Of a stretch of 64,000 nt of DNA, positions 17,888-57,047 are shown in pieces. The notes under the pieces are model-generated. The model ran no database searches. It was given only the letters and a program-made list of their open reading frames with translations, and was not told where the DNA came from. Numbering within the stretch: the first letter of the stretch is position 1; each line of letters begins with the position of its first letter. The position numbers and the translations under genes are program-made. The DNA is from Sthenelais limicola. Taxonomy: Eukaryota; Annelida; Polychaeta; Phyllodocida; Sigalionidae. The DNA lies in contig OW804099.1 of NCBI GenBank assembly GCA_942159475.1, positions 13,766,162 through 13,830,161 on the forward strand. Direction: 5' to 3'.

Positions 17888-19185
17888 ATGTGACGTTGTT
17901 GCTTCTACCAAGGTCAGGGCTCTACCGACTAAAGTCTACCGAGGCCTAAATAAATAAAATAGGTGTGTTCCGATTCCCCCCCCCCCCCCCCAAACACCGC
18001 CCCTACCTAGAAAAACCTTCCCCTACCTAAACATTTTTTTACCATACCTGATTTTTGTTTTACCATACTTTACTTGTTTTGGATTTTTTAACCAAAAAGC
18101 TAATAAAAGCAGGAAAACATGTTTTCCTAACCTGGAACTGTCAGAAAGCACATTTCCCTTGTTTAAAACAACTATTGTTATAAAATAGACATCTTTTTCA
18201 GTGCCTGGGAGGTGGTTTCCTAATGAAAAATAAATGAAAAAAGAAGGCTCCCACCCCGTACCTAGTTTTCAGCTAGATAAATCGGAAACACACGTATTAG
18301 TTTTTGCCCTATTTGTGACTCTCTGCCGCTCAGTGGTTATACTAGTAAAACCATAGAACCGTGGTAAAACCTTAATATTCGATCATGGGAAAGGCCCAGA
18401 TGAGGTGTGTGACGTCAGCACACTGCCCATGCCATGGCGACACCTGCTGGACTGCGGTCCTTGACCGTTGAAAGACATGAACTGAAGTTTCAATGGTCCC
18501 ACTGTCGGACCAGTGAAAAATGTGTATAAAACGTTGGAGAATCCTTGGGAGGACTAGTGAAACCTTTGGAGGACCGGTGAAAGTTCCTTTTCACCGGTCC
18601 TCTTGTCCGATGAATGTTCTAAAGTTTTTGCCATGTCAACGGGCATTACATCAGGTAGTATATAGTTCTGAAGATAAATATTAAATATGAATAATATAAG
18701 AGGCAAATACTTGAGCCTCAGTCTATTAAATCATCGAAAGGGGGCGGCAGACACAAACATAACAAACGTTATATATCAAAGAAATGCAAAATGAATCCCC
18801 CATTGAGCTAAAACATGGTCTTTTTCCTGTCAGCAGTTCAAATTAGTTTCTCTGATACACACACAAAATAAAATGCAACGTCCCCCTTTAATTTGCCAGG
18901 AGAGACCTGAAAAGGTACCCTTTTTGTAAACTTTCAAGGACCTTGAATGTTCCTGAAAAAAACACTTCGTTCTCCTTGAAATTGGATTTTCATAGCCGCC
19001 ATTTTGAATTGTGATTCGCATGTACAGTCTAAAATCTATAGTGCCATGTCCACAGTCCAGCATGGACTATTTACCAATGCAGAATGCTCTATTGTCAATA
19101 TGCATGTGTTATAGATGTTTCCATAAAAGAAGCCTCCGTATTTCCCATCATGGATTTAGTTTTCATAGATCATTTATACAACAAG
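17888..19185. other. Non-coding stretch up to the giant element
   Basis: It contains a poly-C tract (about 17976-17991) and a perfect inverted repeat at 18569-18602. No supported gene. The sequence immediately left of the giant element is 'caag' (19182-19185). Confidence 0.5.
18569..18602. repeat. Perfect 14-bp hairpin
   Basis: Arms 18569-18582 and 18589-18602 are exact reverse complements around a 6-base loop (gttcct). Related direct words (ggaccagtga, ggactagtga) lie just upstream, so it probably grew from a short local repeat. Confidence 0.8.
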
Positions 19186-19916
19186 TGTTGCGCGCGTAGC
19201 TTCGGATCTTTATGCTATTGGGCGGTGCATCGGGCCAGGGTGAATATATCTAGCTAGTATTCATATGCATTCGAATATACTCGGACTTCGGGGTATTGCC
19301 TCTCATGATGTTTAATATAGAACGTGATATTGTAGGAGACGATAGGCGATATTGAATAGAGAGTCATGGTGATATATAGTAGCTGTAGGTTTCCGGTATG
19401 AACAACACAACACGATGAGTTTTAGTACGCCACTACTTGTATATTGTATCTTATCCTGTACATAGATGCTAGGTTGATGTTAGTGTAGACATTGAATCAT
19501 ATGAGATCTTATGAGTCTCCTTCCCTGTATTCTTACGGTTGTTACTGCATGACAATCCGAGATCAGTGTGATATAATATATTGGTTCTAGCGCACACAGT
19601 GCGTCTAGTACCTCTTGGTATCTACTGCATATCTCTCTATATCCCAGTCTATATGAATGTCCCAAGTCTCTCCCGTTCTATGTATATATATGTTCTTCTG
19701 TATATATCTCTATGTTCTTCTTTATATCCCAGTATTCCCCGTATATATACCCAGGGGGGTGAGTGTCGGGCATCCGTATTGGTGGACCCTTTATCCTATG
19801 ATACCTTTCCCTCCCTCTAGCCCCTCCCCTTCCCTTAGCGCATGCCTTAGTAAAAGAAACATATCCTACCCTACTACCCACCCTACTGCCCTCTCGTGTT
19901 AACCACGGTTACTACA
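19186..19916 (-). repeat. 3' LTR of giant element, 731 bp
   Basis: Matches 38646-39376 line by line. In the sense direction it starts TGTAGTAACC and ends CGCAACA. It contains TATA-like words (for example 'gatataaagaagaa') but no plain AATAAA that I can find. Open frames inside are duplicated in both LTRs and are not genes. Confidence 0.95.
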
Positions 19917-19932
19917 CTACCCTTTTACTCGA
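19917..19932 (-). other. Polypurine-like tract of giant element
   Basis: Immediately before the 3' LTR the sense strand reads 'gagtaaaagggtag', a mostly purine run. It sits where second-strand DNA priming would occur. It is short and interrupted by T, so the call rests on position. Confidence 0.6.
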
Positions 19933-22854: not shown

Positions 22855-25266
22855 TTATAGTTTTGAACCAACAGCTGCTTCATTTCCATGGAGATTAGTG
22901 GCTACCAGGAGTCGGCTGTTGGAAGTGGAGTTAAGAAGCTCGATCTTTTCTGCAGGTCTTAGTGACCAGAATACTATTTCTTCTGGCAACTCGACCGTTT
23001 CTGCTGAACCAGCATTTTCTACTTCTAGGCCCCCAAGCCACCTAAGTCGAACAACTGTCCTGAACGAGCAGCAAACCTGTTTCGCTACCATTCCCGTGAC
23101 GACAGGTGGCGTGGCCGATCTGAGTACCTCCACTGGATATACCAATTTACATAGGAAAAGAGCATACCGCTTCTCTCCCTCCTGTACACGGAGGCTAAGT
23201 ATTGTGTGTCCTGCCGTGTTATGGCCTCGAGCTTTTCTACATCCACACCCATTACAGATCCGTCGTATTAGTTGTCCCAACACGTATACTACTACTAGTC
23301 CTGCCAGCATCGTACCATATGACGGCCATTCCCCAGACTTGCCTGCTTCAAGTGAATCTGAGTTCAGGGCGGGGCCTTGTGTTCCCCATTCGATCTTGCC
23401 CCAACTATCTTCTGGAAATAGTTCCAGAGTTGAGCCGATCTTCCCTGCCAACGCCCCTTTTAACGATCCAATGATCGCGAGCATTCTGAAAATTCTATAG
23501 CAAAGATAAATGGTTATTAATACATGTATCATTTCTATCAGCCAGAATACCAGTGGTACCTGCGGCGTTACAGTTAGATCTGTTAGATCTCGCCATGCCT
23601 TATATTGCCATGCTTCACCCTGCTCCATGTTACTCTTAATTTCTCTCGCAACCTTATTTACCTCCATTCCTTTTGCAAACTGCTGGGGGGACATTGCTGT
23701 TAGCATTTTCCCTAGTTCCTTACCTGTTGGCAAATTTAAATGTACTAAGAAATTAGTGAGGCTTTCTCCCGAAAAGTTTCCCACCGGTATACCAAAACTT
23801 CTTGCAAATGCCAAATTAAACCCATGCGCCACAGAAACCTCTACCCCGCTTAATTCTCTACACGTCAGCTCCTTTGGTGCCAATCTATGGTGGTCAATCT
23901 GCAGGGTGCATCCGCAGGACACCTCGAACACAGTGATCCCCACGATATTGACCTGCCTTGTACTATTTTTGCATGTCAGTAACCCCTTGGGTCCCTTATT
24001 TATAAGCAAGTACGTTGACCCCTCCACATTTTTAACAATGTCTGGCGCCCTTTTCTTCAAGTACATGTCAAACATGCAATACCTAAGAATATTGGCACTA
24101 TGGTCATTAAATAAAGCGATCATGCAGTCCTCATCCTTTCCTGAATTATCTATGAAGGTGAATGGACATATATAGCTCCCTTTTTTAGTACATTGCATTA
24201 ATTCAATGGCGTCTACCTCCATTAATTCCCCTGAGCCGCGTTGGGCCAACATGCGTTGTGTGGCCGATCTCAATCGTGTGCATCCATCCTGAGATTCCCT
24301 GTGCACATGCAATGGCGTATCAAACACCTCCATTTCATACAACTGAAGGGGCTCCGAATCGTTTGCTAGGGAAATTGGTACCAGTACGTTGATCGTATTG
24401 TTAGGCCCCATCTGTACCCCAACGTTAGTATTCCAGTCGATATAATCCCCTAAAATGTTCAAAGTGCTGTTATCTCCTAATACCTGTCTCACTCTCTCTT
24501 CCCACTGACTTTCCATAAATACCTTGGCAAGTGACTCATGTATTTTTCCCTCTCTTAATGTTTCCAAGACATCACCCACTATCGTTATATCTTCAATGTA
24601 ATTTCTTATCGCCAGGCATTTCAAAATTGAGCCTTGGAGCTGCTGTTGGATTCTCCCCTGTGAGTCCACTTCCTCGTGCATTATGTCCGATAATTGAGCC
24701 GTCTTATTCGCAAAGCGTAGCCATTTATCTTCTAATTCATCCATGGCGCTTATTGATTCGTTTACATGCGATCTTAAGAACCTAAATATGATATTGGAAT
24801 TGGCCACTAACTTCATGAGAGCCTCGTCCCTCAGGTGTGGGTTTCTTATTATCCCTGGTGCAAGCCTATGAATAATGTGTCTTTCTACGTTTCTTAAGTC
24901 AGAGTTAGTTGATAGATCGAGAATCCCAGCCACAATTTTCCCAAACGGGGCCAGATAATTTCTTTTTAATCGTTTAGGGCGCTGCAAAATATTTCTCAAG
25001 TGATTTGCACGCTCATACTCCCTTGCGGCCCTCGAATGTAACTCCCTGATATACTTGTCTAAAGACTCCCCCACCATTTCATAACCTTTTGGCCATTCTC
25101 CCTTAACTATCTGGATCGGCTGTGGAGGTATAATATTTAGCTCAGAACGGAAGCCTAAACTCAAAGTTTCCACCCCTGTTATCAATGTACCACGGTCAGT
25201 GAATACCACTCCATAGTTGTGCCTTAGAACCGTTGTAGCCATGCAACTATATTGCATGCACATCAT
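22855..25266 (-). CDS. env: Envelope glycoprotein, errantivirus/baculovirus-F-like
   Basis: The 803-residue frame has the layout of insect errantivirus Env and baculovirus F. A short N-terminal part ends in a furin-type site RPKRLKR (96-102), followed by a fusion-peptide-like segment (103-118) and a long ectodomain. Cysteine-rich stretches at about 329-470 include a CGCTLQI motif near 451-457. Membrane segments lie at about 570-593 and 652-666, and a tail of about 135 residues follows. Such proteins mediate membrane fusion and can make an element infectious. No clear signal peptide follows the first Met; it may come from an upstream exon or be unusual. The start is supported by a splice acceptor just before it (exon begins at 25270). 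It lies downstream of the accessory block. It appears unbroken. The plus-strand frames here are shadows. Confidence 0.8.
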   Translation of the reverse strand: MMCMQYSCMATTVLRHNYGVVFTDRGTLITGVETLSLGFRSELNIIPPQPIQIVKGEWPKGYEMVGESLDKYIRELHSRAAREYERANHLRNILQRPKRLKRNYLAPFGKIVAGILDLSTNSDLRNVERHIIHRLAPGIIRNPHLRDEALMKLVANSNIIFRFLRSHVNESISAMDELEDKWLRFANKTAQLSDIMHEEVDSQGRIQQQLQGSILKCLAIRNYIEDITIVGDVLETLREGKIHESLAKVFMESQWEERVRQVLGDNSTLNILGDYIDWNTNVGVQMGPNNTINVLVPISLANDSEPLQLYEMEVFDTPLHVHRESQDGCTRLRSATQRMLAQRGSGELMEVDAIELMQCTKKGSYICPFTFIDNSGKDEDCMIALFNDHSANILRYCMFDMYLKKRAPDIVKNVEGSTYLLINKGPKGLLTCKNSTRQVNIVGITVFEVSCGCTLQIDHHRLAPKELTCRELSGVEVSVAHGFNLAFARSFGIPVGNFSGESLTNFLVHLNLPTGKELGKMLTAMSPQQFAKGMEVNKVAREIKSNMEQGEAWQYKAWRDLTDLTVTPQVPLVFWLIEMIHVLITIYLCYRIFRMLAIIGSLKGALAGKIGSTLELFPEDSWGKIEWGTQGPALNSDSLEAGKSGEWPSYGTMLAGLVVVYVLGQLIRRICNGCGCRKARGHNTAGHTILSLRVQEGEKRYALFLCKLVYPVEVLRSATPPVVTGMVAKQVCCSFRTVVRLRWLGGLEVENAGSAETVELPEEIVFWSLRPAEKIELLNSTSNSRLLVATNLHGNEAAVGSKL

Positions 25267-25269
25267 GAT

Positions 25270-25290
25270 CCTAAAAACAAGAAGTTAGCA
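25270..25290 (-). promoter_or_regulatory. Splice acceptor of env mRNA
   Basis: The sense strand reads 'tgctaacttcttgtttttag', with a branch-point-like TGCTAAC, a T-rich tract and AG at 25272-25271. The env ATG lies four bases into the exon. This is what a subgenomic env mRNA needs. The leader donor at 38602 is the natural partner. Confidence 0.75.
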
Positions 25291-26129
25291 AATAATAAAA
25301 AACGGCTTAATGCTGAGAAATCCACATTAGCCTTCACTGGCCTATGTAAAAGTGATATTCTCCTAGTAAACTCACCCTATTATGAGTCCGAACATCTTGC
25401 GATCCTAGTCCTGTAGCAAGATACTAGTCCCCGTTCTTTCTATATGCAAGTTCGTTCCTGATCCCTGTACAAAAGTCAAGTGATGCTCCCCCTCTGGCTG
25501 TGCTGAGCTTATATCTAAGACCAGACCAGTCCAAGACCTATTGGGCTTGCTCCTTCCCTCCTCCCTCTCAAGCATACGACACATCCCCATATCAAGTTAG
25601 GGTACGGGTGTCCCAGCTCATGACCTTCCTCTGCTAGATGAAATACTGCATAATGACACCTAGCCACTTATCGTGTATGAGGCCTGTCTTGCAATTTATA
25701 GAACAACCCCCCCCCAACCGCTTGCAAGCTACTTATGGGTTTCGACTGCTTGAGCCCAATTGCTGTGTCTAATTTTAACTGTCTTGCCTCCCAAGCTCCA
25801 CTTTTCATACGTTCCAGCCCCCATCAAAGTACACCAATAATCCCACCATTTCAGGTTACTGGCTCCATTTACCCCAACCTGCACAGTACATTACACTCAA
25901 TCAAAAGACTAAATGCGCCTTCAATTCGTTTCAATTTTTCTTACACGAATTTAAATTTGCATCTCCTCACAACCCCGACACCCCAATGAGTTGCACGTAG
26001 GCATCTTATACCTCCATAATTCTTACATGTATACCATGTCACCATGGATCCAACAGAGCCCCAAACTTATCATAAAGGCTAATATACCCTCATAACATAA
26101 CCCTGCAAATTTAGATATGTATTGTGTAC
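25291..26129. other. Spacer between env and accessory E
   Basis: No convincing frame on either strand. The 84-residue plus frame at 25735-25989 and the 61-residue minus frame at 25405-25590 lack motifs. In the spliced model this is intron. Confidence 0.45.
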
Positions 26130-26699
26130 CTATGGGTTCAACTGTCCAGAACTCACCTTCAAGCCCACGGGCATCCATGACAGAGGCAATCTTAACTCGA
26201 TTTGATATACATCCACCGGTAACGACAGGTGATGTCTGATAGTTGCCTCAGACATTTCTGTTAGCTTGTCCAGGAATTTTACCGCTTGCTCCATATTTTC
26301 AGGGAATATCCCCCTCACCCTTGGACGAAACATGTTTAAAATTTCATATGTTAAATCCGAGATAATGCATACCGTATCCTGTAGCCTCCTTAATGGGGTG
26401 AGAGTATGTCTCTGCGAGATATCAATCGTCAAGGACCGAATAGGCTCATAACGTAGGCCTCTTAAAAAATCAAATGCCGCTTTTCTCAAGCGAACGATAT
26501 GCGTCTCCTTTTGCAGCCGTCTAATGGGCTCAAACTCCGGATATCTCTGAGATGGAGACAGCATGAAGAATTTCAATATTTCGAGCATTAACCAATTAGC
26601 CCTGACCTGTTGATTCAAGATGGCTGCCATTCTGGCAGCCCTATCTGTTCTCCTAATAATTTCCGCATTAATCATCTCACTCCCCCTTCTTGTATCCAT
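26130..26699 (-). CDS. Accessory protein E (five-member element family)
   Basis: A 189-residue basic, probably helical frame starting ATG at 26699. It shows the family motifs in order: a hydrophobic/basic helix ending P-x2-R-Y (LEILKFFMLSPSQRY), seven residues on R-L-x2-E-x-H-I (RRLQKETHI), and near the end LTEMSEATIRHHLSLPVDV then LPLSW. After residue 181 there is an excellent phase-0 splice donor (AAG|GTGAGT, exon end 26157), so the last eight codons are probably read only in unspliced RNA. A TATA-like word lies upstream on the sense strand at about 26795. No known domain, signal peptide or membrane segment is recognised. Function unknown. Confidence 0.65.
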   Translation of the reverse strand: MDTRRGSEMINAEIIRRTDRAARMAAILNQQVRANWLMLEILKFFMLSPSQRYPEFEPIRRLQKETHIVRLRKAAFDFLRGLRYEPIRSLTIDISQRHTLTPLRRLQDTVCIISDLTYEILNMFRPRVRGIFPENMEQAVKFLDKLTEMSEATIRHHLSLPVDVYQIELRLPLSWMPVGLKVSSGQLNP

Positions 26700-26908
26700 C
26701 TTTCATTACAGTGATGCAAACCCTATTATACCAGGTCTATCTCCAGTGACAATACTATATATCCCTGGTCCCCCTCCCCCCTCCCACCGGCATGCTTTAT
26801 ATACCCCAGGTCCATCTTCACCTACCCATTATAGTCTTGTTTTTTCCCACTCCCTAGCAACTGGTGACGTTTTACCAATCGACCACGACAAATATAGACA
26901 GTATATGC

Positions 26909-27598
26909 TTACACGGGGATGCCCCCATCTTCCACTAATTTGTGAGACTCCATGTAACTCACCTTTCTTGTCATTATGTCCGGCAAATACTCTTCTGGTA
27001 ATACGTCACCCAGGGTCGCAAAGTCAATATCCGATTCCAAGTTAGCGACTATAAGTTTTCTCGCCAGGCCTGTGCGCTTCTGTAGATAGGGAATCAATCT
27101 GTGTTGTCGTTTATCTTCTATACATTCCAATCTGAATTCCTCAGCACAATACACGCCCAAGATGTTTAGCAACATTTCGCCCACCGCCTTTGTCAAATGT
27201 AATATTTTATCGGACACAGTTACTGCTTTCTGGGCTTCGAAGACACTTCTCATTCTTCCGCCCTTTGTCGTGAGTCGTTCTATTGCCAGAAAACCCCTGC
27301 TTTCAACATAGATTCTGCAACGTTCCTTCATAATATATATATACGTATCCCTTTCCAATCGTTCTCTAGTGGAAATTCGTGCGGATCCACCTCTATTCAC
27401 AGGGTTCACAAGGAAATACCTAGTGGCCCTGACCAGCAATATCCCCAAGTTTCTCTTCTGATTTTTCAAGATCTTCAGCTCGTCTGCACCCAATCTAGCT
27501 TTTTCCAAACGACACATTTGTCTCTGTTCCAGCTCCATCGTATTCAAAGTTGAGGACCACCGCCACATCAGGACACCAGTGCAGACACTAAACTCCAA
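26909..27598 (-). CDS. Accessory protein D (five-member element family)
   Basis: A 229-residue frame. A downstream Met at residue 21 has a good context (acgATGG) and may be the true start. Family motifs are VRATRYFLVNPVNRG, then nine residues on RERLERDTYI. The C-terminal block is YLQKRTGLARKLIVANLES followed by acidic residues and LPEEYL. It is the longest member. After residue 212 there is a phase-0 donor AAG|GTGAGT (exon end 26963), in the same relative place as in A and E. It lies in sense orientation with gag-pol, between C and E. No known family recognised. Role unknown. Confidence 0.65.
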   Translation of the reverse strand: MEFSVCTGVLMWRWSSTLNTMELEQRQMCRLEKARLGADELKILKNQKRNLGILLVRATRYFLVNPVNRGGSARISTRERLERDTYIYIMKERCRIYVESRGFLAIERLTTKGGRMRSVFEAQKAVTVSDKILHLTKAVGEMLLNILGVYCAEEFRLECIEDKRQHRLIPYLQKRTGLARKLIVANLESDIDFATLGDVLPEEYLPDIMTRKVSYMESHKLVEDGGIPV

Positions 27599-28713
27599 AT
27601 ACCAAACTCCAGACCCTAAACTTCAGAACCCCTTTCAAGATCCGCGTGTATTTGTTATTTTCTTCTTCCCATCATCCTTTATTACCTTCCAACTTCCTCT
27701 GCCAAGCTTTATTACCCATATTTACCACCCCTGACTCCTACTCATAATTAATGTTTTGAGTTAATACTTCCTGCGCCCGCGACTTATGTTGCGCCACTCG
27801 CCCCGCCAGACACGACACATTCAGTTTTGCGTATGTTCCATTACTCATTTTCAAGCCACAAAATATGACATAAACATCTTACAGTAATACACACGCGCTG
27901 AGTGTCATCACCCCACAAGCCCACCCCCATCATATTCTGAGGAGAGATTATTGTTTTCTCATTGGGTACAAAAAAAAATTCGCATTCCACAAGCTGTATA
28001 TACCATCAACAGATATTAAACCAAACGTCCCAAGCTCACGCAACATCTAGTCACACATACCCCCAGATCCCAGGCTTATCAATCCCCAGTGAGTTCCTTG
28101 TAGACACTCACCGAATCACCAAATAATAGCCCAAATTTCGTCTTCAAGATAAAGACCAGTTGCAGTAACCTTCACCCTCACTCCCTTCATAACACAAAAT
28201 CATTGCGCTCCATACCTAAAAATGATTCATTTATTCCTACTCTGAAACAACCATTCTAGCAGCGACAATTATATATGACATACACTTATTATTATGTCTT
28301 ACTCATAGTTTGTAGCCCAAGGGCCTCTCAAGAATTTATTTCCCTGCTACACCCGAAAACGACCACCACGGCGTGTTTTAACAGAAACCATACCTTCATT
28401 AATTCTATCTGAAATGTATGCTTTTCAGAACGTTATCTTCACGAGTCAAATTCATCACAACATGTCACCTTTACACGACCATATTAAGATAACGCCTCGT
28501 TGTATCACACGTTGTCTCGCTCAATCATCATTAGGCGTCTCCTTTCATTAAACGATTTTAAGAACAATCATTCTGCATTCCATTCATTCAAACCGAATCC
28601 TCGAATTACAAAATGATATATGTCACTTTCCATATTTGCCGGCTAGCCCGTGACGTCACCCCTCTCCCTATCTGATTCAAATGTATCAACTTTCTCCTTC
28701 CCCAAGATTGTCA
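27599..28713. other. Spacer between accessory D and C
   Basis: About 1.1 kb inside the element without a convincing frame on either strand. It is AT-rich. It may be intron or hold RNA signals. I see no repeat boundary in it. Confidence 0.45.
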
Positions 28714-29229
28714 CTACAGACAGAAAATGAAAACTTGACCCACCGCCTGCAGCAACCAATCTCCATTAATCCATTCGATTGGTGACATGACGTTGACCGT
28801 CCCTTGAAGCAATTCCTGCACTTTTGTTTTAGATAAACCTGACAATGCCATGAACCGCTTGGTGTCCGCCTTCTTGTGATTTTTTCTCTGGCAACAGCGC
28901 TTTCTTAAATAATCCGTTGAGTATAATTTCAATAATACATCCAAAATCCTATAGACCTGATGCAAGATCGCACTCATTCTGTCTTTATCATTCATTACCC
29001 GCAAACGCTTGGTAGAGTACCATTTTCCTGGTCTAACTTTCAGGGATCGTAGGTGCTTATCACATTTTTCGTATAAAGATAGCAAGTACCATTCTACTTC
29101 CAATCGATAATTAGGTAACTGCCTAGGATATCTAATCCGGGGAGCTAGAAGCCAAAATGAATACACTTTAATACACAAGATCGACGCGTTCCTAATATTT
29201 ATTTTACTATGCTCCAGCATTGTCACCAA
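28714..29229 (-). CDS. Accessory protein C (five-member element family)
   Basis: A 171-residue, strongly basic frame starting at 29229. The first motif is IKVYSFWLLAPRIRY, and seven residues on comes YRLEVEWYLLSLY. A middle basic stretch contains KRCCQRKNHKKAD. The C-terminal block is LSGLSKTKVQELLQGTVNV followed by a Trp near the end. After residue 162 a weaker donor (GCG|GTGGGT, exon end 28744) is again in phase 0. The basic patch could serve RNA binding or nuclear import, but that is only inference. No known domain. Confidence 0.62.
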   Translation of the reverse strand: MVTMLEHSKINIRNASILCIKVYSFWLLAPRIRYPRQLPNYRLEVEWYLLSLYEKCDKHLRSLKVRPGKWYSTKRLRVMNDKDRMSAILHQVYRILDVLLKLYSTDYLRKRCCQRKNHKKADTKRFMALSGLSKTKVQELLQGTVNVMSPIEWINGDWLLQAVGQVFIFCL

Positions 29230-29469
29230 ATTGCAAAGCCGAGCAAAGCTTCAGAAATGGCTTGTCATTCTGCAGCGCCCTTCCTCTCCTGATAATCTCA
29301 ACTGTCTATTTCATGCCCAGGGTTTAGGTGGATTATTTTCCTCATATTTTTATTGTCATTAAATTATGCATCAGTATATCCTAGCCTACTAGGTCGCTGC
29401 CGGCCCGTGCTCCCTTCATCTATATAAATCAGTCTGCGTTGCCATAGTCACCTCACCTGCCTGTTTTAT

Positions 29470-29757
29470 ATGGCATCGTTTTTCCCCGGAGACGCTGGTA
29501 TGCTCACCTCATGTTATTTTTATACTAATCCACCCCTGGACCACTCCTGCTATTCTCATATACCGAAAAAGAATCTAGACAATACCATGAACCCTTACCT
29601 GAATATTCCGAGACTCAGTTTACTCTGTCCTAACTATAGTCATCTTTGTCTCCCCAATTTCTATCAACACGTTATTTTATGTAAACATTGGATTCTCAAA
29701 TCAGCCGACGAACAACATACACGAACCCCCACGTTCCCACGAAATTCATATCTGTAA
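29470..29757 (+). CDS. Candidate antisense ORF with TATA box
   Basis: A 95-residue frame on the strand opposite to the element's main genes, ATG at 29470 with G after it. A TATATAAAT word lies about 45 bases upstream (near 29422), a spacing that would place a transcript start just before the ATG. The product is rich in Pro, Tyr, His and Cys and has no recognised motif. It lies in the spacer between accessory C and B. It could be an antisense gene of the element or chance. Confidence 0.25.
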   Translation: MASFFPGDAGMLTSCYFYTNPPLDHSCYSHIPKKNLDNTMNPYLNIPRLSLLCPNYSHLCLPNFYQHVILCKHWILKSADEQHTRTPTFPRNSYL

Positions 29758-30823
29758 AACTTATTACGACAAGCGTTTCTCAGCGTTTTTTATATGCCCA
29801 CCTGTCACCCAGTGATTGAAACTTTCTGGTTTTCGTTGACTTTCACACCCAATCTGCCTTTGTCTTATCAGTGACTCATCAACTATACACCGCTCTAATC
29901 TTCATTCAATTATATGGTTTTCAATTCATGGATTCTAAAAAAAGTTCTCTCATTATTCCCTCGCTCCTTATCTCTATGAGTGTCATGGTGTCATGATCTT
30001 ATGACCCGATCATGACTCGATCCCCGGTGCCTCCCCTTCTGTTTTTTATTTTATTTATTACGTCAATCAAATCTTTTTAGCCAATTGGCGTGTCCCTACA
30101 ATGATATCAGAGTGGTTCCTTTGATTAGGCAAATTCCCCCTTTGGTATCCTGTAGACACCATTTCCAGCTTAACTTCTCGCAGCAGCACCCGATTTTCGC
30201 CGACCCCTAGACCAGCTTTCTATCTCCTATATATATTCTCCCGATCTTTAAACCTTTTTGGAAACCATGGCAGGCCGAGAAATTCACCTGGCCATTGACA
30301 ATGACATTGTCATTGTCCAAACCAGAGACGTATGGAGCCTGAGCGATTTAGCTCGGCTCCTCGTTTATGGCCTGTCCTTGAAGGCAACTCGGTGGTTTTA
30401 TGGGCGGGCGTGTGCTCTTGTTTTCAGGGCATACCGCCGCTGGGCTAACGAGTAGCATATTTTTTATATATTCCAGTAGATTTTAGTTATAGCAGTTACG
30501 TATTATGTTTTTAGTTTTTCTTATTCTTTTATAATAACCCATATTATTCATCATATATTATCATACTCAAGAAACCCCATATTCTACTCTCTTTTACCCC
30601 TTCCCCTCCTTGCACCCCTTCCGCTTCTGCACCACAACCATCCTTCCCCACACCTCGCACTGGTAAGTTGCTTTATATACCTTTTTATTTCATTCTAATT
30701 TATTTTTCCCCGCTTATAAACCTGTCCTTGTCTTAGAAACTGCTCCACTGGGAATAACTGCCCACTGTAACATCTCAAAGACCCCGTATTCTAGTTATAC
30801 ATAACATGATCGAGTCAGATATA
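29758..30823. other. Spacer between accessory C and B
   Basis: No sense-strand frame. It holds the small antisense candidate at 30267-30455. A 'ctggtaagt' donor-like word on the plus strand near 30659 could belong to such an antisense unit. Confidence 0.4.
30267..30455 (+). CDS. Candidate small antisense ORF (62 aa)
   Basis: ATG at 30267 sits in a near-ideal context (gaaaccATGG), about 35 bases after a TATATATA word at about 30229, a compact promoter-like arrangement. The 62-residue product begins acidic and hydrophobic (AIDNDIVIVQTRD) and ends in amphipathic, Arg/Trp-rich helices. No match to known families is recognised. It is antisense to the element's main genes. Confidence 0.35.
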   Translation: MAGREIHLAIDNDIVIVQTRDVWSLSDLARLLVYGLSLKATRWFYGRACALVFRAYRRWANE

Positions 30824-31279
30824 TTACCTACCCTCAGACAGGGGAATCCATTTTTCCAATGGTTTCTCAATCCAGCTCCATCGTTCACACGCCAGTTTTT
30901 CCAAGTCACTAACTGTCATCCCAGTGTTACATGCTAACAACTTAATTATAATGTCTCTTGGGTAGTTGCAACATCCTATTTTTAACATCGTGCCGACGAA
31001 ATAACTTTTTAACATCGACAGGTATATATACTGCTGCTTTCGTGACCGATCCTCCCAGCTCATGTGATTGACGGCTATTCTCTCCCTCCTATCTGGCATC
31101 TCTCTAATCAAGAAACGAGAGGCTCCCCACCAGATATTTTTTAAGTGTGTTTCCATTTCAATTCGCCTCCTAGCGTTAGCCCCTCTGAATCTCAGGTGTG
31201 GTTTCTGCAAATACAGACGAGCCAATCGAATCACCTGTATTACCTCTGTCTTCTCTCCCCTGGTTATAGGTCTACACAT
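30824..31279 (-). CDS. Accessory protein B (five-member element family)
   Basis: A 151-residue frame. An in-frame stop lies five codons upstream, so ATG at 31279 is the only good start. Motifs: IRLARLYLQKPHLRF, then seven residues on RRRIEMETHLKNIW, a middle helix with QQYIYLSMLKSYFVGTML, and a C-terminal NTGMTVSDLEKLACERW. It is the shortest member. Donor-like GT words lie at its end (GAGG|GTAGGT and TAG|GTAATA near 30832-30828), but unlike A, C, D and E they are not in phase 0. It follows A closely. Function unknown. Confidence 0.62.
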   Translation of the reverse strand: MCRPITRGEKTEVIQVIRLARLYLQKPHLRFRGANARRRIEMETHLKNIWWGASRFLIREMPDRRERIAVNHMSWEDRSRKQQYIYLSMLKSYFVGTMLKIGCCNYPRDIIIKLLACNTGMTVSDLEKLACERWSWIEKPLEKWIPLSEGR

Positions 31280-31305
31280 TCTCCTCGATAGTCAGTATTC
31301 AATGC

Positions 31306-31854
31306 TCACAGGCCTATAAAACTGTATACTGTGTCCCCACCCATTTCAAAAATACCTTCTCGCTGCTTATAAGTGAATACACTTACCTTGACTTTCGCCC
31401 ATGCGCTTGGACACAACTCCTTAATGTTTAGCAGGTCCACTTCCTCCGTGAAAACTGCGTTAATTTTTTCTGCTGGGATGAAGGTTAGACCACTTATATA
31501 TTGATAAAGAACCACTCTATCACATTGTTCGTACGCCAATCGTTTCTGCTCTGCTTCTAGCGATAAAATATTGCATATTACCCGACGTATTAATACGTGG
31601 GCAATATATTTATGCTGCTGGTATTTTGTCCTTGCCAATGGGAATACATCTGTGATGCTTTTAACCTCGTTGTCTGGCAATCTCAGATCAGCAAACATGT
31701 GCCACAGGTACCACTCGTTTGTCAACCTTTTCTCGGGACATCCTCCGTACCTGTGAGCTGGATGTATGGTAAATATTCTTATCAATCGTATAATCAGGCG
31801 TTCTATGTCGTACATATCCTGTACCCCTAACGCTGTACCAGGCAACTTGTTCAT
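31306..31854 (-). CDS. Accessory protein A (five-member element family)
   Basis: A 182-residue frame, the first accessory gene downstream of pol. Motifs: IRLIRIFTIHPAHRY, six residues on KRLTNEWYLWHMF, a middle helix with HKYIAHVLIRRVICNIL, and a C-terminal ISGLTFIPAEKINAVFTEEVDL followed by CPSAW. After residue 156 there is a consensus donor AAG|GTAAGT (exon end 31387) in phase 0. The sequence beyond it looks unlike the other members, which fits an intron. No known domain. By position it resembles the accessory genes of complex retroviruses, but there is no sequence evidence for a shared role. Confidence 0.67.
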   Translation of the reverse strand: MNKLPGTALGVQDMYDIERLIIRLIRIFTIHPAHRYGGCPEKRLTNEWYLWHMFADLRLPDNEVKSITDVFPLARTKYQQHKYIAHVLIRRVICNILSLEAEQKRLAYEQCDRVVLYQYISGLTFIPAEKINAVFTEEVDLLNIKELCPSAWAKVKVSVFTYKQREGIFEMGGDTVYSFIGL

Positions 31855-32835: not shown

Positions 32836-35800
32836 CTACTGTGTATCCTCTATCTCATTCTTATCCTTCTCTCCCTCCTCTTCAGGCCAATTGCAGCCTA
32901 TTTCCTCTGTGCAGGCTATATCCTGCCATCCCTTCTCATCCAGCGGGCCCTTCTCTTCATACTCGTGCAAAGGTAGTAAATCTGGTGAGAGCAGTCTTTC
33001 CATAAAGTGACTGGTCTTGGATACACTAACCGGTTTCAAATGAGATACATGCACTGGTTTAGGCAGTGTTGCTCCCGTATCCATCCTCCTTAGTCTGGCT
33101 GTGCACCCTGTAGGTCTTGCACAGATGACAAAGGGGCCACAGAAATTCTTTTGCAACTTATATGCAGTTCCAGGTTGTAGTAGGCGATTCACCTTCATAT
33201 ATACCAACGATCCTGACCTCAACCTGTGTGCATTCGCCTGCCTATCATAATATTCCTTCATTTTCGCCTGTGACGTCAGTAATGCTTCCCGAGCTAGGTC
33301 CCCATAGATCTCTTGTTTTTCGACGATCTTGCCTAGCTGCTCCAGAAGGGGCCTCATTTCTCCCTCGTATTCTTTTAAGACATTTTCGTGAGGAAGTCGT
33401 GGGAATCTTCCATACATTAGCAGGTATGCTGGGTAGTTTGTTGCGCTTGAATCCGACGCATTCATTGCAAATACAATCGGGGCCACAAATTGACACCAAT
33501 TTTTCTGATCTTTATTTACATATGCCCTCAGGGCCGTCTTCAGGCTACGATTAAATCTCTCGATCTGACCCTGGCTCTGAGGATAGTAGCTCGATCCCAG
33601 GACCTGCCTAATCCCCATTACTGTGCAGAAATTTCTGAACAATTTGCTAGTAAATGAAGAACCGTTATCGCTGAAAAGAGTGCACGGCACCCCCAAGATA
33701 GACACCACGTGCTCAAAGAACTCAGGTATTAAGGTTTCAGATTTTATGTCTTTTGTTGGCCAAGCTACACAGAACCTTGTGGCTACATCACAGACCGTGT
33801 GCACATATTTATAGCCTCTGCTCGATTCAGGCAGTGGACCTATGGTATCAATCTCGATAGCGTCCCATGGCACCTGTGACAGTTCCTTAACGGTCATAGG
33901 TACCTTAATAGGATTAGGATTCGGCTTCACCTCCAGACATTTCTGACAAGACCCAATATACTCACCTATGTCTCTAGCCATTGATGGCCAGTAGTACCGC
34001 GGTGAAGCAATGCTAAGCATCTTCTTTATACCCATATGTGCGCCCAAACCGACGTCATGTATTTGATTCAATAATTTTTCTACCATAGATTGTGGGACCA
34101 CTAACTGCGCTCTCTCTTCTATCTGTGCCTTTCTCGTCCTTGGAGGTACCCTGTACAGGATGCCGCCTGATAGCAAGAAACAGTCGTGTTGCAGCAAAAC
34201 TCCCCTTGCTCTTGTGTTATCCTTCGGGAGCTTTTCCCTCTCAATGTAATTTGTCATATCGCTGCAAAACTCGTCAGTTATTTGCTCCTTCTCGAACACC
34301 TCTCTCGTGCCTAAGGTCCCATACTCAGTGATGAGCCTTTCATAGAACGCCGTATCTGTGATTTGCACTTCTCTAGCCCTTACTCCCTTTCGTCTTTTCT
34401 CTCTTTGATACTTACCAACCAGTGACGGGACTCCCAAAGTCTTCCTTCGTCTTGACACTCCTCTGTGGATTAGGTCTGTCCCCTCTGGTGTCTCTTCCTC
34501 AGCCTCTGTCTCCTCCTCTCGTGCTGGTGTGTCATGGTTGCCAGTATCAGACTGACTATCCCCCTCTTCTGAGTCTTTCCCCCCTAATTTCCCTGCCTTG
34601 TCTCTTTCCTCTATATATAGCGCCATCCTTTCTGTCACAGGCGGGTTTTTTCTAGTAACCATCATTATTTGCTCCCCTGGCGTGCCCAGGCGTGTCACCA
34701 CCGTGCCATCGACTCTTGGGAAGTCCCTACTATCATCCTCGATAGGTGCTGTGTCTTGCTCTGGTTCTGGTGCACCTACCTGGATAATTGGCGTGTCATC
34801 CTTCTCATCTCGCCTCTTATTTCTGAGACGTCCATTTTTTAAGATTGACGGTCTCCTATACTTTCTGATGGGCGATGCTCCCAGTACCTCCTCCTTATCA
34901 AAAAATCGGATGTGATTCACCGCCTTGAATCTTACCTGCCTCTGCTGCGGTCCCTGCTCCTCCTTTGCTGTAATGCCATCCCCAAAATATGGCATTCTTG
35001 ATAAAATATCGGCTGTGATGTTGCATTTCCCTTTGATGTGCCGCAAGGTGAAATCAAAATTACTGAACCAGTCGATCCAACGAGCCATTCTTCCTGTAAG
35101 ATCCTGTTTAGCGTTCAAGGCTAATAATGCCGCATGATCAGTGTATACCTCAAAGTGGCTGCCCAGAACGTAATGCTTAAACTTTTCCAAGCCATACCGG
35201 ACCGCCACCAATTCTTTTTCTGTCGCCGAGAAATTTTGTTCAGCAGAAGACAGGCTTCTTCCTGCAAACGCAACCGGCCTATGGAAGCAATTATCATGAA
35301 GCTGAGTCAACACGATGCCAATCCCAATTCGAGAAGCATCACACCAGATAGTAAACCCTTTAGAATAATCAGGGTATCTTAGAACGACATCTTCGCACAT
35401 TGACCGCTTTACTGCCTTAAACGCTCTATCTGCCTCCGTATTCCACTGAAAACGCTCTCTTCTACCAAGCTTCTTCGTCAGCTGGTACAAGGGGACCATT
35501 TTATCTGCAAACCCTGGAATGAATGTCCTATAGTAATTTGCCAGACCGTTAAAGGCCCTCATTTCCCTGACAGTTTTTGGTATTGGATATGAACGAATTA
35601 TACGAACCTTCTCTGGGTCCGGCTGCAACCCATCTTTCGTTACTACAAACCCCAGAAATTGCATTATTTCATACCCAAACGCACATTTCTCCGCCCTGAA
35701 CTTAAGCTTCGCCACTTGGAATGCTTGCAATACCTCTTCCACGTGCTGCAGATGCTCCTCCCATGTTTGTGATGCTATAATTACATCATCCATGTAGGGC

Positions 35801-37557
35801 AGTGCATTTGGCACATACTTTAAAACGCTCTCAATCACCGAATGAAACGCTTTTGGCGAAGTCTTGAGCCCCATAGGCATGACCTTGTACTGGAACACCC
35901 CTCTGGGTGTGACAAAACTAGTCTTGGGCTTGTCTTCTGGCCTTAGAGGCACTTGAAAAAATCCTGAATGGCAATCCAATTTTGAGAAAAATCTTCCCCC
36001 CAGTCCCCCGACGTTTTCCAACGTCTCGTCAGCTGAGGGGAAGACCCTACATTCGTTCTTTATACATTTATTAATTTTTCTGTAATCTATGACAATTCTA
36101 TATTTTTTGTCCTGTCTTGCAGCTGCTTTCCCTTTCTCCACTAGAAAGCATGGCGCAGCAAATTCAGACTCGCCATTCGTTCGTTCAATAATGCCCAAAC
36201 GCATCTGCTCTTCCAGCATTGTTTCCAGTACCCTTGTCATATGAGGGTTTGTACGGTATGGACTTCGGATAGGGGCCACATAGTCTTCTTTCAACTCTAT
36301 TTTATGTGCAAAAATGTCAGTTGTCGATATCGGCGAATCTTTTGTGGCGAAGACCGCGCGGTAACGCTGTAGCAAACTTGCCATACTTAGTTTCTGCTCC
36401 GCCGACAGATTCTCGCCCAGGGTGTAATCAACCCTAGTCTCACTGCATTTTGTGCTACCTACCTCCTCGATCGGTCGCTCAGACTGACCGGGAACCCCAG
36501 CTTTTACATAATCATCTTCATTGACCACTGAAAATGCTGCCAAAACCGAACCCTTTCCCAATTTTATTGGCGTGTTAGCAGCGTTAAATACGGTAACCGG
36601 TATATTGTTTCCCCCCCGCTGTGGCCTCACGAGGGCTCTTTTGACCGCAAATGGGACCTGCACACATCTTTTCAAATTGTCAACTACTCCTACTGCATGA
36701 TTTAAATTTTGATGCGCTGAAACCACTGCCATGCAAGTAAATTCTGATTTCGGAGGTATTAATTTAGGCTTAGTTATTCTAACGGTGTAATGGTCAGGCT
36801 CTTGGATTTGGAAGTCAATCTTGGCCTTTCTTGCTTTCAAGAAATCGACACCTATGATACACTGAAGGGATAAACCCTTCACAACATAAAACCATGCGTT
36901 AGTGTGAACTTTTCCAATGTTAATAGACAACAACACCCTTTCATTCGACTTGTGGCGCCCCCCATCGGCTGTGTAAATAACCAAATATGTCTGTACACGG
37001 CGGAGCAGCGCCCCTTTTTCCTGCACTACTTGGTTTAACGTATCCGTCGAAATACAACTGATACTAGCTCCCGTGTCCACCAGGCACCTAATTTTTGCTG
37101 AGCCAACTGTGCAAATTGTTCTGCAGTCTTCCAGTTGGACTGTCACTTTCCTCGCGTCACTGTCCTGTAACACCAGGCGTGAGGAACGATCATCGCCCTC
37201 CTTACTATTAATTATACTGTTTTGTGTCACCTCTTTATGTTTACTTAAGGACATCAACCCATTGTCCTTTTTCTTCTGAAGTTTCAATTCCTGCTCCGCT
37301 CTATTATTTTCACGCTGTTCTTTTTTCTTCTCCTGTAATTTCCATCTTCTCCTCTTCTGGTTCCACCTCTTTCTTATTGCTTTTTTCACCTCCTTTTCTC
37401 GAAAGGCCATCTCCTGCACCTCCTGAGTTCCTTTCTCTTGACTCATACTTATGTCACTGTCATCTATTGAAACTGAACTTCCGCTTTCATCCTCTCCATC
37501 TTCCTCAGATCGATTCTCCCTCTCTGCCGGTATGGCTGGCAACATTCCAACCGGCAT
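32836..37557 (-). CDS. pol: Pol polyprotein: protease, RT, RNase H, integrase
   Basis: The 1573-residue frame is complete. Residues 1-130 are highly charged. The aspartic protease has DTGA at 161-164. RT spans about 430-620 with YMDD at 588-591. RNase H spans about 730-855 (D740, TDHA around 807). An acidic, low-complexity linker covers about 860-1090. Integrase has zinc-binding H1167, H1174, C1204, C1207 and catalytic D1237, D1297, E1333. Order PR-RT-RH-IN is Ty3/gypsy (Metaviridae). Pol is in the -1 frame relative to gag, and its frame is already open upstream within gag. A GAAAAAC heptamer (37587-37593 on plus) lies ten codons before the gag stop, so -1 frameshifting is likely; re-initiation at the ATG just past the gag stop is the alternative. 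No frame break seen. Confidence 0.93.
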   Translation of the reverse strand: MPVGMLPAIPAERENRSEEDGEDESGSSVSIDDSDISMSQEKGTQEVQEMAFREKEVKKAIRKRWNQKRRRWKLQEKKKEQRENNRAEQELKLQKKKDNGLMSLSKHKEVTQNSIINSKEGDDRSSRLVLQDSDARKVTVQLEDCRTICTVGSAKIRCLVDTGASISCISTDTLNQVVQEKGALLRRVQTYLVIYTADGGRHKSNERVLLSINIGKVHTNAWFYVVKGLSLQCIIGVDFLKARKAKIDFQIQEPDHYTVRITKPKLIPPKSEFTCMAVVSAHQNLNHAVGVVDNLKRCVQVPFAVKRALVRPQRGGNNIPVTVFNAANTPIKLGKGSVLAAFSVVNEDDYVKAGVPGQSERPIEEVGSTKCSETRVDYTLGENLSAEQKLSMASLLQRYRAVFATKDSPISTTDIFAHKIELKEDYVAPIRSPYRTNPHMTRVLETMLEEQMRLGIIERTNGESEFAAPCFLVEKGKAAARQDKKYRIVIDYRKINKCIKNECRVFPSADETLENVGGLGGRFFSKLDCHSGFFQVPLRPEDKPKTSFVTPRGVFQYKVMPMGLKTSPKAFHSVIESVLKYVPNALPYMDDVIIASQTWEEHLQHVEEVLQAFQVAKLKFRAEKCAFGYEIMQFLGFVVTKDGLQPDPEKVRIIRSYPIPKTVREMRAFNGLANYYRTFIPGFADKMVPLYQLTKKLGRRERFQWNTEADRAFKAVKRSMCEDVVLRYPDYSKGFTIWCDASRIGIGIVLTQLHDNCFHRPVAFAGRSLSSAEQNFSATEKELVAVRYGLEKFKHYVLGSHFEVYTDHAALLALNAKQDLTGRMARWIDWFSNFDFTLRHIKGKCNITADILSRMPYFGDGITAKEEQGPQQRQVRFKAVNHIRFFDKEEVLGASPIRKYRRPSILKNGRLRNKRRDEKDDTPIIQVGAPEPEQDTAPIEDDSRDFPRVDGTVVTRLGTPGEQIMMVTRKNPPVTERMALYIEERDKAGKLGGKDSEEGDSQSDTGNHDTPAREEETEAEEETPEGTDLIHRGVSRRRKTLGVPSLVGKYQREKRRKGVRAREVQITDTAFYERLITEYGTLGTREVFEKEQITDEFCSDMTNYIEREKLPKDNTRARGVLLQHDCFLLSGGILYRVPPRTRKAQIEERAQLVVPQSMVEKLLNQIHDVGLGAHMGIKKMLSIASPRYYWPSMARDIGEYIGSCQKCLEVKPNPNPIKVPMTVKELSQVPWDAIEIDTIGPLPESSRGYKYVHTVCDVATRFCVAWPTKDIKSETLIPEFFEHVVSILGVPCTLFSDNGSSFTSKLFRNFCTVMGIRQVLGSSYYPQSQGQIERFNRSLKTALRAYVNKDQKNWCQFVAPIVFAMNASDSSATNYPAYLLMYGRFPRLPHENVLKEYEGEMRPLLEQLGKIVEKQEIYGDLAREALLTSQAKMKEYYDRQANAHRLRSGSLVYMKVNRLLQPGTAYKLQKNFCGPFVICARPTGCTARLRRMDTGATLPKPVHVSHLKPVSVSKTSHFMERLLSPDLLPLHEYEEKGPLDEKGWQDIACTEEIGCNWPEEEGEKDKNEIEDTQ

Positions 37558-37559: not shown

Positions 37560-38471
37560 CTACTGAAAATTCTGCCGATACACTCCGTTTTTCACCACCC
37601 CAGTTGTTTTTGGTGACTGAACGCTTGATCTCTTATTCTTATCTTTCTCCTGGCGTCTCTCTCCCTCACCTCTTCTAGGGGTCCATTCTCTTTCCTGGCT
37701 TCTCTCTTCCTCACCTCTTCTAGGAGTCCATTCTCCTTTCTCCTCTACTGGTAGGCTTCTAGCAGGACCGGGGTGTGATCTGACATCACTGGGAGTAACG
37801 TCATAACCCTTCATTGCCAGAGAAGCTATCATTGATTGAGTAGAACCCACTAGGTGAAGTCTCAGTGCTTTTTCATTTTGCTCGTCTGACAACTCATGTT
37901 TTCTGGCCGCTCTTCTAGCCTCTTCACAAGTGCGAGGAGCCTCTGTCAGGACCCTCTCCGCTAATCCATCCTTTAAACCTGCTATAAAAGCCTTCAGTTT
38001 CTCATCCTCGTGCAGTGATGTCCTTGCCAGCAATACCAGCATGGCGTCTGCATATGTCTCCACACTCTCACCTGTCTCCTGTCGTCGCCGGGAATAATCA
38101 TCCTTCACCTCACTATACGGCATTTCCTGAAACTTGGTCAAGAATTTACTTTTGATATCTGAGTACGACAGTGTACCCCGTTTTCTAGCTGCAACTGATG
38201 CGACTTGTTGGTAATATGCTTTAGCTGATCCCTCCAATCTACCACCCAGCCCCTGCAGCCAATACATCTCAGGTATGCCCAAGGCGCTTGCATAGTCCTC
38301 ATATTCTGTCAGGAATTCAGACACATTTCTGGTCGCCGTCGAATGTCGAAAATTTTCAGGCCCCCTAATGAAGTGTCTCATTGCCGCTCCTCCCCCTTCG
38401 TTAGACTTATCTGACCATCTTCCTGTTTGTGCAGGGGTAAACGCTGGGAGCACATTAGGTAGCCTATACAT
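37560..38471 (-). CDS. gag: Gag capsid polyprotein
   Basis: The frame opens near 38579 but the first ATG is at 38471, giving 303 residues; only a TTG exists upstream. The core at about residues 60-215 has the pattern of the Ty3/gypsy retrotransposon Gag domain: WLQGLGGRLEGSAKAYYQQV, a downstream helix with FLTKFQEM, and ETVETYAD-like spacing. The C-terminus is basic with repeated 'EWTPRRGE' words. There is no CCHC zinc knuckle, which is unusual for a Gag of this group; the basic repeats may replace it. The stop lies two bases before the pol ATG. Gag would build the particle that packages element RNA. Confidence 0.85.
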   Translation of the reverse strand: MYRLPNVLPAFTPAQTGRWSDKSNEGGGAAMRHFIRGPENFRHSTATRNVSEFLTEYEDYASALGIPEMYWLQGLGGRLEGSAKAYYQQVASVAARKRGTLSYSDIKSKFLTKFQEMPYSEVKDDYSRRRQETGESVETYADAMLVLLARTSLHEDEKLKAFIAGLKDGLAERVLTEAPRTCEEARRAARKHELSDEQNEKALRLHLVGSTQSMIASLAMKGYDVTPSDVRSHPGPARSLPVEEKGEWTPRRGEEERSQEREWTPRRGEGERRQEKDKNKRSSVQSPKTTGVVKNGVYRQNFQ

Positions 38472-38601
38472 CTCGGTTATATCCCCGGAATCTTCTGAGC
38501 AAATTGTGCTACTAACACCTATTTTCGTTGCTTGCTGGTTTGCTCTCTGGGGTGTCCATAGTTTCTGCAAAATCCCAAATTAAAAAAAACCAAATACTTA
38601 C

Positions 38602-38620: not shown

Positions 38621-38644
38621 CTCCAATCCCGTGGTTCTCCACCA
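38621..38644 (-). other. Primer-binding site of giant element
   Basis: One base after the 5' LTR the sense strand reads TGGTGGAGAACCACGGGA. TGG complements the tRNA CCA end. The implied tRNA 3' sequence has a plausible 7-base acceptor half and T-arm. It shares the first nine bases with the 3' end of animal tRNA-Ala but then differs, so the primer tRNA is unresolved. Confidence 0.75.
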
Positions 38645-38645
38645 G

Positions 38646-39376
38646 TGTTGCGCGCGTAGCTTCGGATCTTTATGCTATTGGGCGGTGCATCGGGCCAGGG
38701 TGAATATATCTAGCTAGTATTCATATGCATTCGAATATACTCGGACTTCGGGGTATTGCCTCTCATGATGTTTAATATAGAACGTGATATTGTAGGAGAC
38801 GATAGGCGATATTGAATAGAGAGTCATGGTGATATATAGTAGCTGTAGGTTTCCGGTATGAACAACACAACACGATGAGTTTTAGTACGCCACTACTTGT
38901 ATATTGTATCTTATCCTGTACATAGATGCTAGGTTGATGTTAGTGTAGACATTGAATCATATGAGATCTTATGAGTCTCCTTCCCTGTATTCTTACGGTT
39001 GTTACTGCATGACAATCCGAGATCAGTGTGATATAATATATTGGTTCTAGCGCACACAGTGCGTCTAGTACCTCTTGGTATCTACTGCATATCTCTCTAT
39101 ATCCCAGTCTATATGAATGTCCCAAGTCTCTCCCGTTCTATGTATATATATGTTCTTCTGTATATATCTCTATGTTCTTCTTTATATCCCAGTATTCCCC
39201 GTATATATACCCAGGGGGGTGAGTGTCGGGCATCCGTATTGGTGGACCCTTTATCCTATGATACCTTTCCCTCCCTCTAGCCCCTCCCCTTCCCTTAGCG
39301 CATGCCTTAGTAAAAGAAACATATCCTACCCTACTACCCACCCTACTGCCCTCTCGTGTTAACCACGGTTACTACA
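38646..39376 (-). repeat. 5' LTR of giant element, 731 bp
   Basis: The LTR copy next to gag matches 19186-19916 line by line. The base after it on the window plus strand begins 'ctag', compared with 'caag' at the other end of the element. Confidence 0.95.
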
Positions 39377-52090: not shown

Positions 52091-52234
52091 ACAATTTTTT
52101 TGCACCAACTCTGAAGGGTAGCTCCATTTATGCTTGCGTAAACCTTACAGAAACCTGTATCATGAAATTATAAAATGCTCTGCATGCTTTCTTTAATTCT
52201 ATCCATCAAAGCAACTGTTTTCTAACGCAGTCAC

Positions 52235-56777: not shown

Positions 56778-57047
56778 GGTGACATATAGGAGACACAATA
56801 GTTTGGTAACTAACAGGAATATGGACCAAAACACAATCAGAACTGTCACTGCACTCAATCTTTTTAGTTTTAACACTTGCCACAGTCCTTGGGTCACACT
56901 AGGCCTTGTGTAGACAGTGACAAACACTGGTGACTGAATTCACTCACTTTCACCACACCATTAAGTACATTTCACTCACTGTCACAAGTCCGATCTGCTT
57001 GGTCCAGTTTCCTTAGGTTGTAAGGTTCTCCTCCTCCAAATATGAAG

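Follow-up and report, generated by a model that had tools for sequence, protein, structure and literature searches.

A 64,000-nucleotide stretch of the genome of the polychaete Sthenelais limicola (contig OW804099.1, positions 13,766,162 to 13,830,161), hereafter the window, contains a 20.2-kb long terminal repeat (LTR) retrotransposon that carries an env gene and is assigned to the Ty3/gypsy type from the domain order of its pol alone. Between pol and env, on the minus strand, this element harbours five genes, A to E, which by sequence comparison are one protein family, each kept by purifying selection and each ending at a predicted splice donor. They are interpreted here as an anciently duplicated family of donor-ended single exons encoding regulatory or adaptor proteins for the element's own expression, a tentative reading with chances a little short of even. 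The original prediction had described the five frames as diverged paralogues of a family it could not recognise, and all five were found in place on the minus strand. Comparison of the window with 20 further accessory regions, fetched from the genome and chosen to span the identity range, gave the following coding parts and donors.

31387..31854, minus strand: A, coding part up to the donor, 156 amino acids (leave-one-out profile, donor alignment, selection)
31381..31386, minus strand: donor of A, AAG/GTAAGT, phase 0 (GTRAGT in 20 of 20 fetched copies)
30832..31279, minus strand: B, coding part, 149 amino acids, phase 1 at the donor (evidence as for A)
30826..30831, minus strand: donor of B, GTAGGT, phase 1 (same site in 12 of 18 rows)
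28744..29220, minus strand: C, coding part, 159 amino acids (leave-one-out profile, selection; orthologues with a UBA-like C-terminal module)
28738..28743, minus strand: donor of C, GTGGGT, phase 0 (GTRRGT in 9 of 9 rows)
26963..27538, minus strand: D, coding part, 192 amino acids (evidence as for A)
26957..26962, minus strand: donor of D, AAG/GTGAGT, phase 0 (8 of 8 rows in the first alignment)
26157..26699, minus strand: E, coding part, 181 amino acids (evidence as for A)
26151..26156, minus strand: donor of E, AAG/GTGAGT, phase 0 (GTRAGT in 7 of 9 rows)

The pol-env interval contains five stop-free segments of at least 150 codons on the minus strand, while one or more such segments appeared in only 5 of 500 first-order Markov simulations. 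The true start codons of C and D are probably the ATGs at 29220 and 27538, respectively. Since the coding parts end at kept splice donors, the frames as originally read overrun the coding sequence; past the donors, A has a tail of 26 residues, B of 2, C of 9, D of 17 and E of 8, none of which shows coding conservation. Minus-strand three-base periodicity and a codon-substitution score, calculated over nine copies, support coding up to the donors and fade beyond them. The full 182-codon frame of A has a stop in several copies; its part up to the donor is stop-free in all 20 fetched copies. The cores of all five proteins are basic, with isoelectric points of 8.7–10.1. Open frames on the plus strand that overlap A, B, D and E were regarded as shadow frames of the minus-strand genes; in the case of A, the overlapping frame stays open in 9 of 9 distant copies. 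Upstream of A, the segment 31901-32020 shows three-base periodicity without an open sense frame and is overlapped by a weak plus-strand signal.

A-E have diverged to about 20% identity. BLASTP between pairs (word size 2) gave E-values from 7.5e-7 (C-E) to 0.12 (B-D), and in all ten pairs the local alignment score was higher than that of 275 or more of 300 shuffles. Leave-one-out hidden Markov models (HMMs) recovered every member, with E-values of 2.1e-5 (A), 2e-3 (B), 4.7e-10 (C), 3.1e-8 (D) and 4.1e-9 (E); each left-out frame ranked first among 2,123 six-frame window segments outside the profile, the best unrelated segments reaching 0.1 to 5.1. The common motif order and spacing noticed in the original prediction were also recovered, comprising P-x2-R, then R-[LI]-x2-[ED] 6-9 residues on, and a [TS]-x-[LMI] block near the end. 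For B, the scripted pattern matched an earlier PITRG, and PHLRF with its spacing of 7 was counted by eye. Among the kept orthologues P-x2-R-[YFGHC] is present in 20/21 (A), 12/18 (B), 7/10 (C), 12/12 (D) and 10/10 (E), and R-[LIV]-x2-[ED] in 71/71.

Profile-profile comparison and structural modelling, both proposed earlier as checks, agreed with common descent in part. With hhalign, orthologue profiles scored above 50% probability in only two of the ten pairs (C-E 92.5, A-C 61.3), so that the coherence of the family is partly a matter of transitivity through C. The other eight pairs scored 0.2-8.9, and B-D (0.2) and A-E (1.06) were no higher than the maximum of 200 column-shuffled controls (1.42). 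The predicted models of E and C share the same helix order, at low to middling confidence (pLDDT 65.5 and 68.8, respectively). In the part to be compared with the compact three-helix fold of a UBA domain, the E model has predicted helices at 133-147, 151-159 and 164-170, and the third helix of the C model is a single turn (147-150). The low profile scores and the non-significant BLASTP match of B with D are what would be expected if A-E were basic helices resembling each other by convergence. This explanation is very hard to sustain against the recovery of all five members by leave-one-out profiles, the motif spacing and donor position common to A-E, and the agreement of the C and E models, which were both built on the same five window sequences.

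The presence of the family in related elements, which the original prediction had left to be checked, was confirmed. The 1.13-Gb genome contains at least 150 matches to A (205 candidates) and at least 150 to E (441 candidates), and 134 of the 150 scored E matches lack an internal stop. Each of the first eight A matches listed is followed, 5.1-5.2 kb downstream on its own strand, by a match to E. The complete array in the order A, B, C, D, E occurs in 10 of the 20 fetched pieces, including the distant copies L009, L012 and L017, and is retained where A has fallen to about 60% identity and C to 43%. The other ten pieces start with A and B, followed by insertions, gaps or the end of the piece; L011 has a partial D followed directly by env, with E skipped. 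In a midpoint-rooted tree each paralogue forms its own clade, with a support of 0.98-1.0 except for A (0.77), and adjacent genes pair with each other (A-B 0.98, D-E 0.93), with the placement of C supported at 0.33. This topology bears out the predicted repeated duplication within one element, and the monophyly of each paralogue indicates that the duplications are older than the spread of the copies now present.

Selection was evaluated on the window and the 20 regions, using stop-free matches of at least 85% length and at least 35% identity. Of the 20 loci, 20 were kept for A, 17 for B, 9 for C, 11 for D and 9 for E; those left out were missing from the piece, interrupted or stop-bearing. Median Nei-Gojobori ratios of non-synonymous to synonymous substitution rates (dN/dS; number of pairs with dS 0.05-1.2 in brackets) were 0.19 for A (95), 0.13 for B (79), 0.21 for C (24), 0.16 for D (36) and 0.08 for E (25), and did not exceed 0.53 in any such pair; the exclusion of stop-bearing copies biases these values towards constraint, and the pairs are non-independent. 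All five genes are under purifying selection, and constraint is tighter on E than on env, which gave 0.11-0.15 in seven copies compared with the window. The persistence of selection on each paralogue suggests that the five probably perform five separate jobs for the element. These gene-wide values argue against the conflict with the host, or arms race, that the original prediction had invoked for the duplications.

The claim that no known family could be recognised needs qualification for the C-terminal part. None of the window versions of A-E matched Pfam at E-values up to 1, and the C orthologue L014 passes the UBA (PF00627) cut-off at the conserved C-terminal block (22.8 vs 22.4 bits, E-value 8e-5), its C-terminal piece alone reaching 25.4 bits (E-value 1.2e-5). 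One C-terminal piece matched UBA_4, and two helix-turn-helix (HTH) models each matched one piece weakly. The C-terminal block of C-type members is thus designated UBA-like, and not a UBA domain. Matches of three D members to DUF2753 remained below the cut-off (best E-value 0.017) and were set aside.

The UBA match in C-type members, and duplication followed by such deep divergence, could also mean that A-E are counter-defence adaptors, whose variable N-terminal helices seize host factors and whose UBA-like end couples them to the ubiquitin machinery in a Vif- or Vpx-like fashion. This is the main rival to a role in element expression, and we regard it as unlikely, because selection speaks against it: all five genes are under purifying selection, E most of all. 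Neither Vpx nor Vif is known to carry a UBA domain of its own. Vpx instead recruits an E3 ligase, according to PMC7764263. On the other side, planarian Burro elements also carry domains linked to apoptosis and ubiquitination (PMC6431247).

The splice donors provide the second kind of evidence. Every paralogue ends at a predicted donor that is kept in most diverged copies. In the B rows with a different site, 4 of 6 carry GTRAGT exactly 12 nucleotides further with the phase kept; the nine C rows read GTGGGT (seven), GTAAGT (one) and GTGAGT (one), and the exceptions for E are L012, with GTGAGA, and L017, which is not alignable. In a second alignment the donor was found in all covered copies of A (13/13), B (11/11, as GTRRGT), C (9/9, as GTRRGT) and E (6/6), and as GTRAGT in 10 of 11 covered copies of D, the remaining one having GCAAGT. 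The six bases of the A donor are invariant in 13 copies, while the flanks differ at 12-20%. The three top-scoring donors in a consensus scan of the 20-kb element are those that end A (8.5), D (8.3) and E (8.3). The string AG/GTRAGT, present in about 1.8% of 90-nucleotide windows, has four occurrences on the sense strand of the element, and three of these coincide with the homologous ends of A, D and E.

The env gene is likewise predicted to be spliced:

25376..25464, minus strand: env exon 1, with a 5' noncoding part and the start of the signal peptide (ATG at 25395, donor at 25375, acceptor before 25464)
22855..25270, minus strand: env main exon (acceptor before 25270; donor GTAAGT at 22850, after the stop)

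The env-like frame of 803 codons appears to encode an envelope protein, as suggested by a signal-peptide-like exon and by two features recognised by eye, namely a hydrophobic stretch preceded by a basic cleavage-type motif and membrane-spanning-like stretches late in the frame. No Pfam family matched it at E-values up to 1, including the F-like (Baculo_F/gypsy) envelopes, and four env copies searched at E-values up to 10 gave only weak matches to other families. Of the twelve 3' pieces fetched, L039 and L040 lack an env match and L034 and L038 have a partial one; these four were excluded from the 3' analyses. An intron of about 105 bases, lying between the mini-exon and the main exon, interrupts the predicted signal peptide. 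All 7 alignable copies have an identical acceptor tract before the main exon (two other pieces could not be aligned), and the ATG at 25266 is missing in two of these seven. The mini-exon contributes a short hydrophobic start that stays in frame in the window and in all 8 copies covering it, including the distant L012; L029, which continues the L012 copy, gave no reading, and L034 and L038 lack the exact acceptor string. The GTAAGT located four bases past the env stop is present in 8 of 8 copies, shifted by one base in two. The split env gene with its kept sites supports a role of splicing in this element, and each of the six 3' genes has a donor at or close to its end, as though all were to be joined to a shared 3' exon. 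The end of env (22858-23193) is more constrained than the rest (dN 0-0.03 vs dS 0.10-1.0), which is unexpected in a cytoplasmic tail.

A, C, D and E have phase-0 donors at homologous ends, and env contains a phase-0 acceptor-like site at 23181 (AG kept in 8 of 8 copies), which raises the question of whether A-E are alternative N-terminal exons of one larger protein, such as Env. We consider this very improbable, since env has its own phase-2 signal-peptide exon and, in the window, joining A, C, D and E (phase 0) or B (phase 1) to 25464 or 25270 leads to a stop within 2-19 codons.

The role in element expression was preferred because of the constraint on all five genes, their basic charge, their position between pol and env and their donor-ended exons. 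Each gene would essentially consist of one coding exon that starts at an ATG of its own and encodes a basic helical core of 149-192 residues with a small UBA-like end; the kept donor would join this exon to a downstream one, and the proteins would be produced from spliced or internally started mRNAs. They would manage expression of the element, for example export or processing of its intron-containing RNA, by analogy with Rev, Rex and CERV. The UBA-like C-terminal module is the putative partner-binding part, and each paralogue would contribute a non-redundant share.

Several results weigh against this interpretation. No convincing acceptor was found upstream of the A-E start codons in a matrix scan within 350 nucleotides, the best scores being -3.1 (A), 2.3 (B), -1.5 (C), -3.3 (D) and -3.1 (E), compared with 5.1 and 5.5 for the two env exons. 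In the window, the donors of B and C reach only 3.6 and 2.7, far short of the 8.3-8.5 of A, D and E. Nor was a long conserved second exon found in the gaps and the fetched 3' regions; the latter contain conserved stretches of only about 14-32 codons, some with many stops in copies, and the tails beyond candidate acceptors are short or variable. The UBA cut-off was reached by 1 of 36 full-length family members, and only 3 of 18 C-terminal pieces matched UBA. No RNA-binding motif was identified in A-E, and a fold search with the two models returned no significant match.

None of the acceptors scanned as 3' partners of A-E was convincing, and 25464, 25270 and 21749 stay as candidates. The site at 21749, in the 3' region, is the top-scoring acceptor-like site of the element and possibly the acceptor of a shared 3' exon; its AG persists in 6 of the 7 copies that aligned, and L029 could not be aligned. 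All 7 copies that could be aligned, out of 10, retain a TATA motif about 100 nucleotides before E. B and C are preceded by TATA-like strings in the window, of which the whole element has 35, and no such string lies within 300 nucleotides of A or D. The weak acceptors and the TATA pattern suggest that the A-E mRNAs may start at internal promoters of a foamy-virus-like kind or use acceptors that a simple matrix misses.

Sequence searches outside the genome returned no relatives. A protein search with alignment A1 scored 1,678 candidates with none at an E-value of 1 or below, one with the 36-member alignment A3 scored 1,447 with none at 10 or below, and one with env scored 7,998 with none at 1 or below, all three being run with no pol control for the representation of animal elements. 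PDB sequence searches gave only chance-level matches, as did phage records searched with E (two records, E-value 0.3). No relative of E, pol or env was found in IMG/VR, a result of little weight because pol, which is sure to have relatives, found none either. These searches agree with the absence of a known family beyond the UBA-like module. They also bear on the idea that A-E have a structural role or help to assemble the particle, as matrix-like, capsid-associated or Env-associated subunits of a hetero-oligomer, for which five co-kept basic helical paralogues would be suitable and in which the N-terminal hydrophobic/basic helix could lie at a membrane. Given that no gag or matrix family matched in the searches and that a particle location finds no support here, such a function seems improbable.

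The array of accessory genes includes a sixth gene, in antisense orientation:

30267..30455, plus strand: antisense gene between B and C, 62 amino acids (protein matches in copies, dN/dS)

Its protein was found on the opposite strand of the B-C region in 16 of the 20 accessory pieces (E-value below 1e-4) and in L009 as a seventeenth (2.4e-4), down to 28% identity; L011 gave a weak match (0.008), and L010 and L015 none. The gene is under purifying selection, with dN/dS against the window of 0.14-0.17 in six diverged copies and 0.31 at low divergence in L020; L022 is without change. Among mid-range copies the frame is free of stops over at least 40 residues in 9 of 9, and among distant ones in 4 of 9; it is truncated in the distant L012 and L017, and its start differs in L023. 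A TATA string preceding it is not kept in copies. Searches with the window version returned nothing from Pfam and, from PDB, only one match at chance level. Unlike the antisense frames of plant Retand elements (TRP28) and HTLV-1 (HBZ), it has 62 codons, lies between two accessory genes and lacks a Pfam match.

The remaining parts of the element have the usual organisation, with two LTRs, gag and pol, the latter in the order protease, reverse transcriptase (RT), RNase H and integrase:

38646..39376, minus strand: 5' LTR (TG...CA bounds by eye; BLAST repeat 38641-39379)
37560..38570, minus strand: gag (Retrotrans_gag, E-value 7.5e-9; in-frame ATG at 38559)
32836..37557, minus strand: pol, with protease, RT, RNase H and integrase (Pfam search)
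19186..19916, minus strand: 3' LTR (BLAST repeat 19181-19919)

The LTRs differ at 1 of 739 bases (99.865% identity between the repeats 38641-39379 and 19181-19919), which suggests a recent insertion of the element. The flanking sequences CTAG and CTTG agree at three of four bases (by eye), so that a putative 4-bp target duplication would be inexact. Elsewhere in the window, a second, shorter gag-pol-like frame was recognised by eye at 52632-56927, with 156-bp direct repeats at 52232 and 57062 that are 99.4% identical. Segments 11629-13842 and 44153-48646 form an inverted pair with C2H2 zinc-finger-like frames (by eye) and long tandem arrays of a 96-bp unit.

The lentiviral genes vif, vpr, vpx, tat and rev are, like A-E, small genes located between pol and env, and the first coding exons of tat and rev end in a splice donor. 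They differ in having no sequence match to A-E in our searches, in comprising two paralogues instead of five (Vpr and Vpx are described as related proteins in PMC7764263) and in the antisense gene within the array here. The C. elegans LTR retrotransposon Cer1 requires CERV, the product of a spliced mRNA, for export of its genomic RNA, and CERV is, like A-E, an accessory protein of an LTR retrotransposon without similarity to known retroviral proteins, according to PMC10309623. CERV is a single large multi-domain protein, in contrast to five small paralogues, and is compared with A-E here by analogy. Burro, a giant Gypsy element of planarians, shares the gypsy-like type, env homology and extra coding capacity; its additional domains are of known types and reside largely in one huge polyprotein, and the available text describes no paralogue array (PMC6431247).

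LTR elements with additional open reading frames are already known. The A-E family, its five-fold kept array, the donor-ended exons and the antisense companion appear to be new, none having been found in the searches made, and no element with five co-kept paralogues of one unknown family plus an antisense gene was found among the open-access papers searched. Comparison of the copies showed, at the level of sequence, the homology, order, purifying selection and donor conservation of A-E and the split env gene. The many copies at all stages of divergence make selection, splice sites and gene content directly testable. Overall, it is conceivable, though we would not call it probable, that the element represents an undescribed complex, retrovirus-like Ty3/gypsy lineage of animals, with an accessory module of five UBA-ended, donor-delimited paralogues and an antisense microprotein gene, in which the five paralogues would form a hetero-oligomeric, subfunctionalised regulator of RNA and protein output, so that lentivirus-like complexity would have arisen independently through exon duplication. 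The element offers a case, outside the vertebrate retroviruses, of a simple gag-pol-env element becoming genetically complex.

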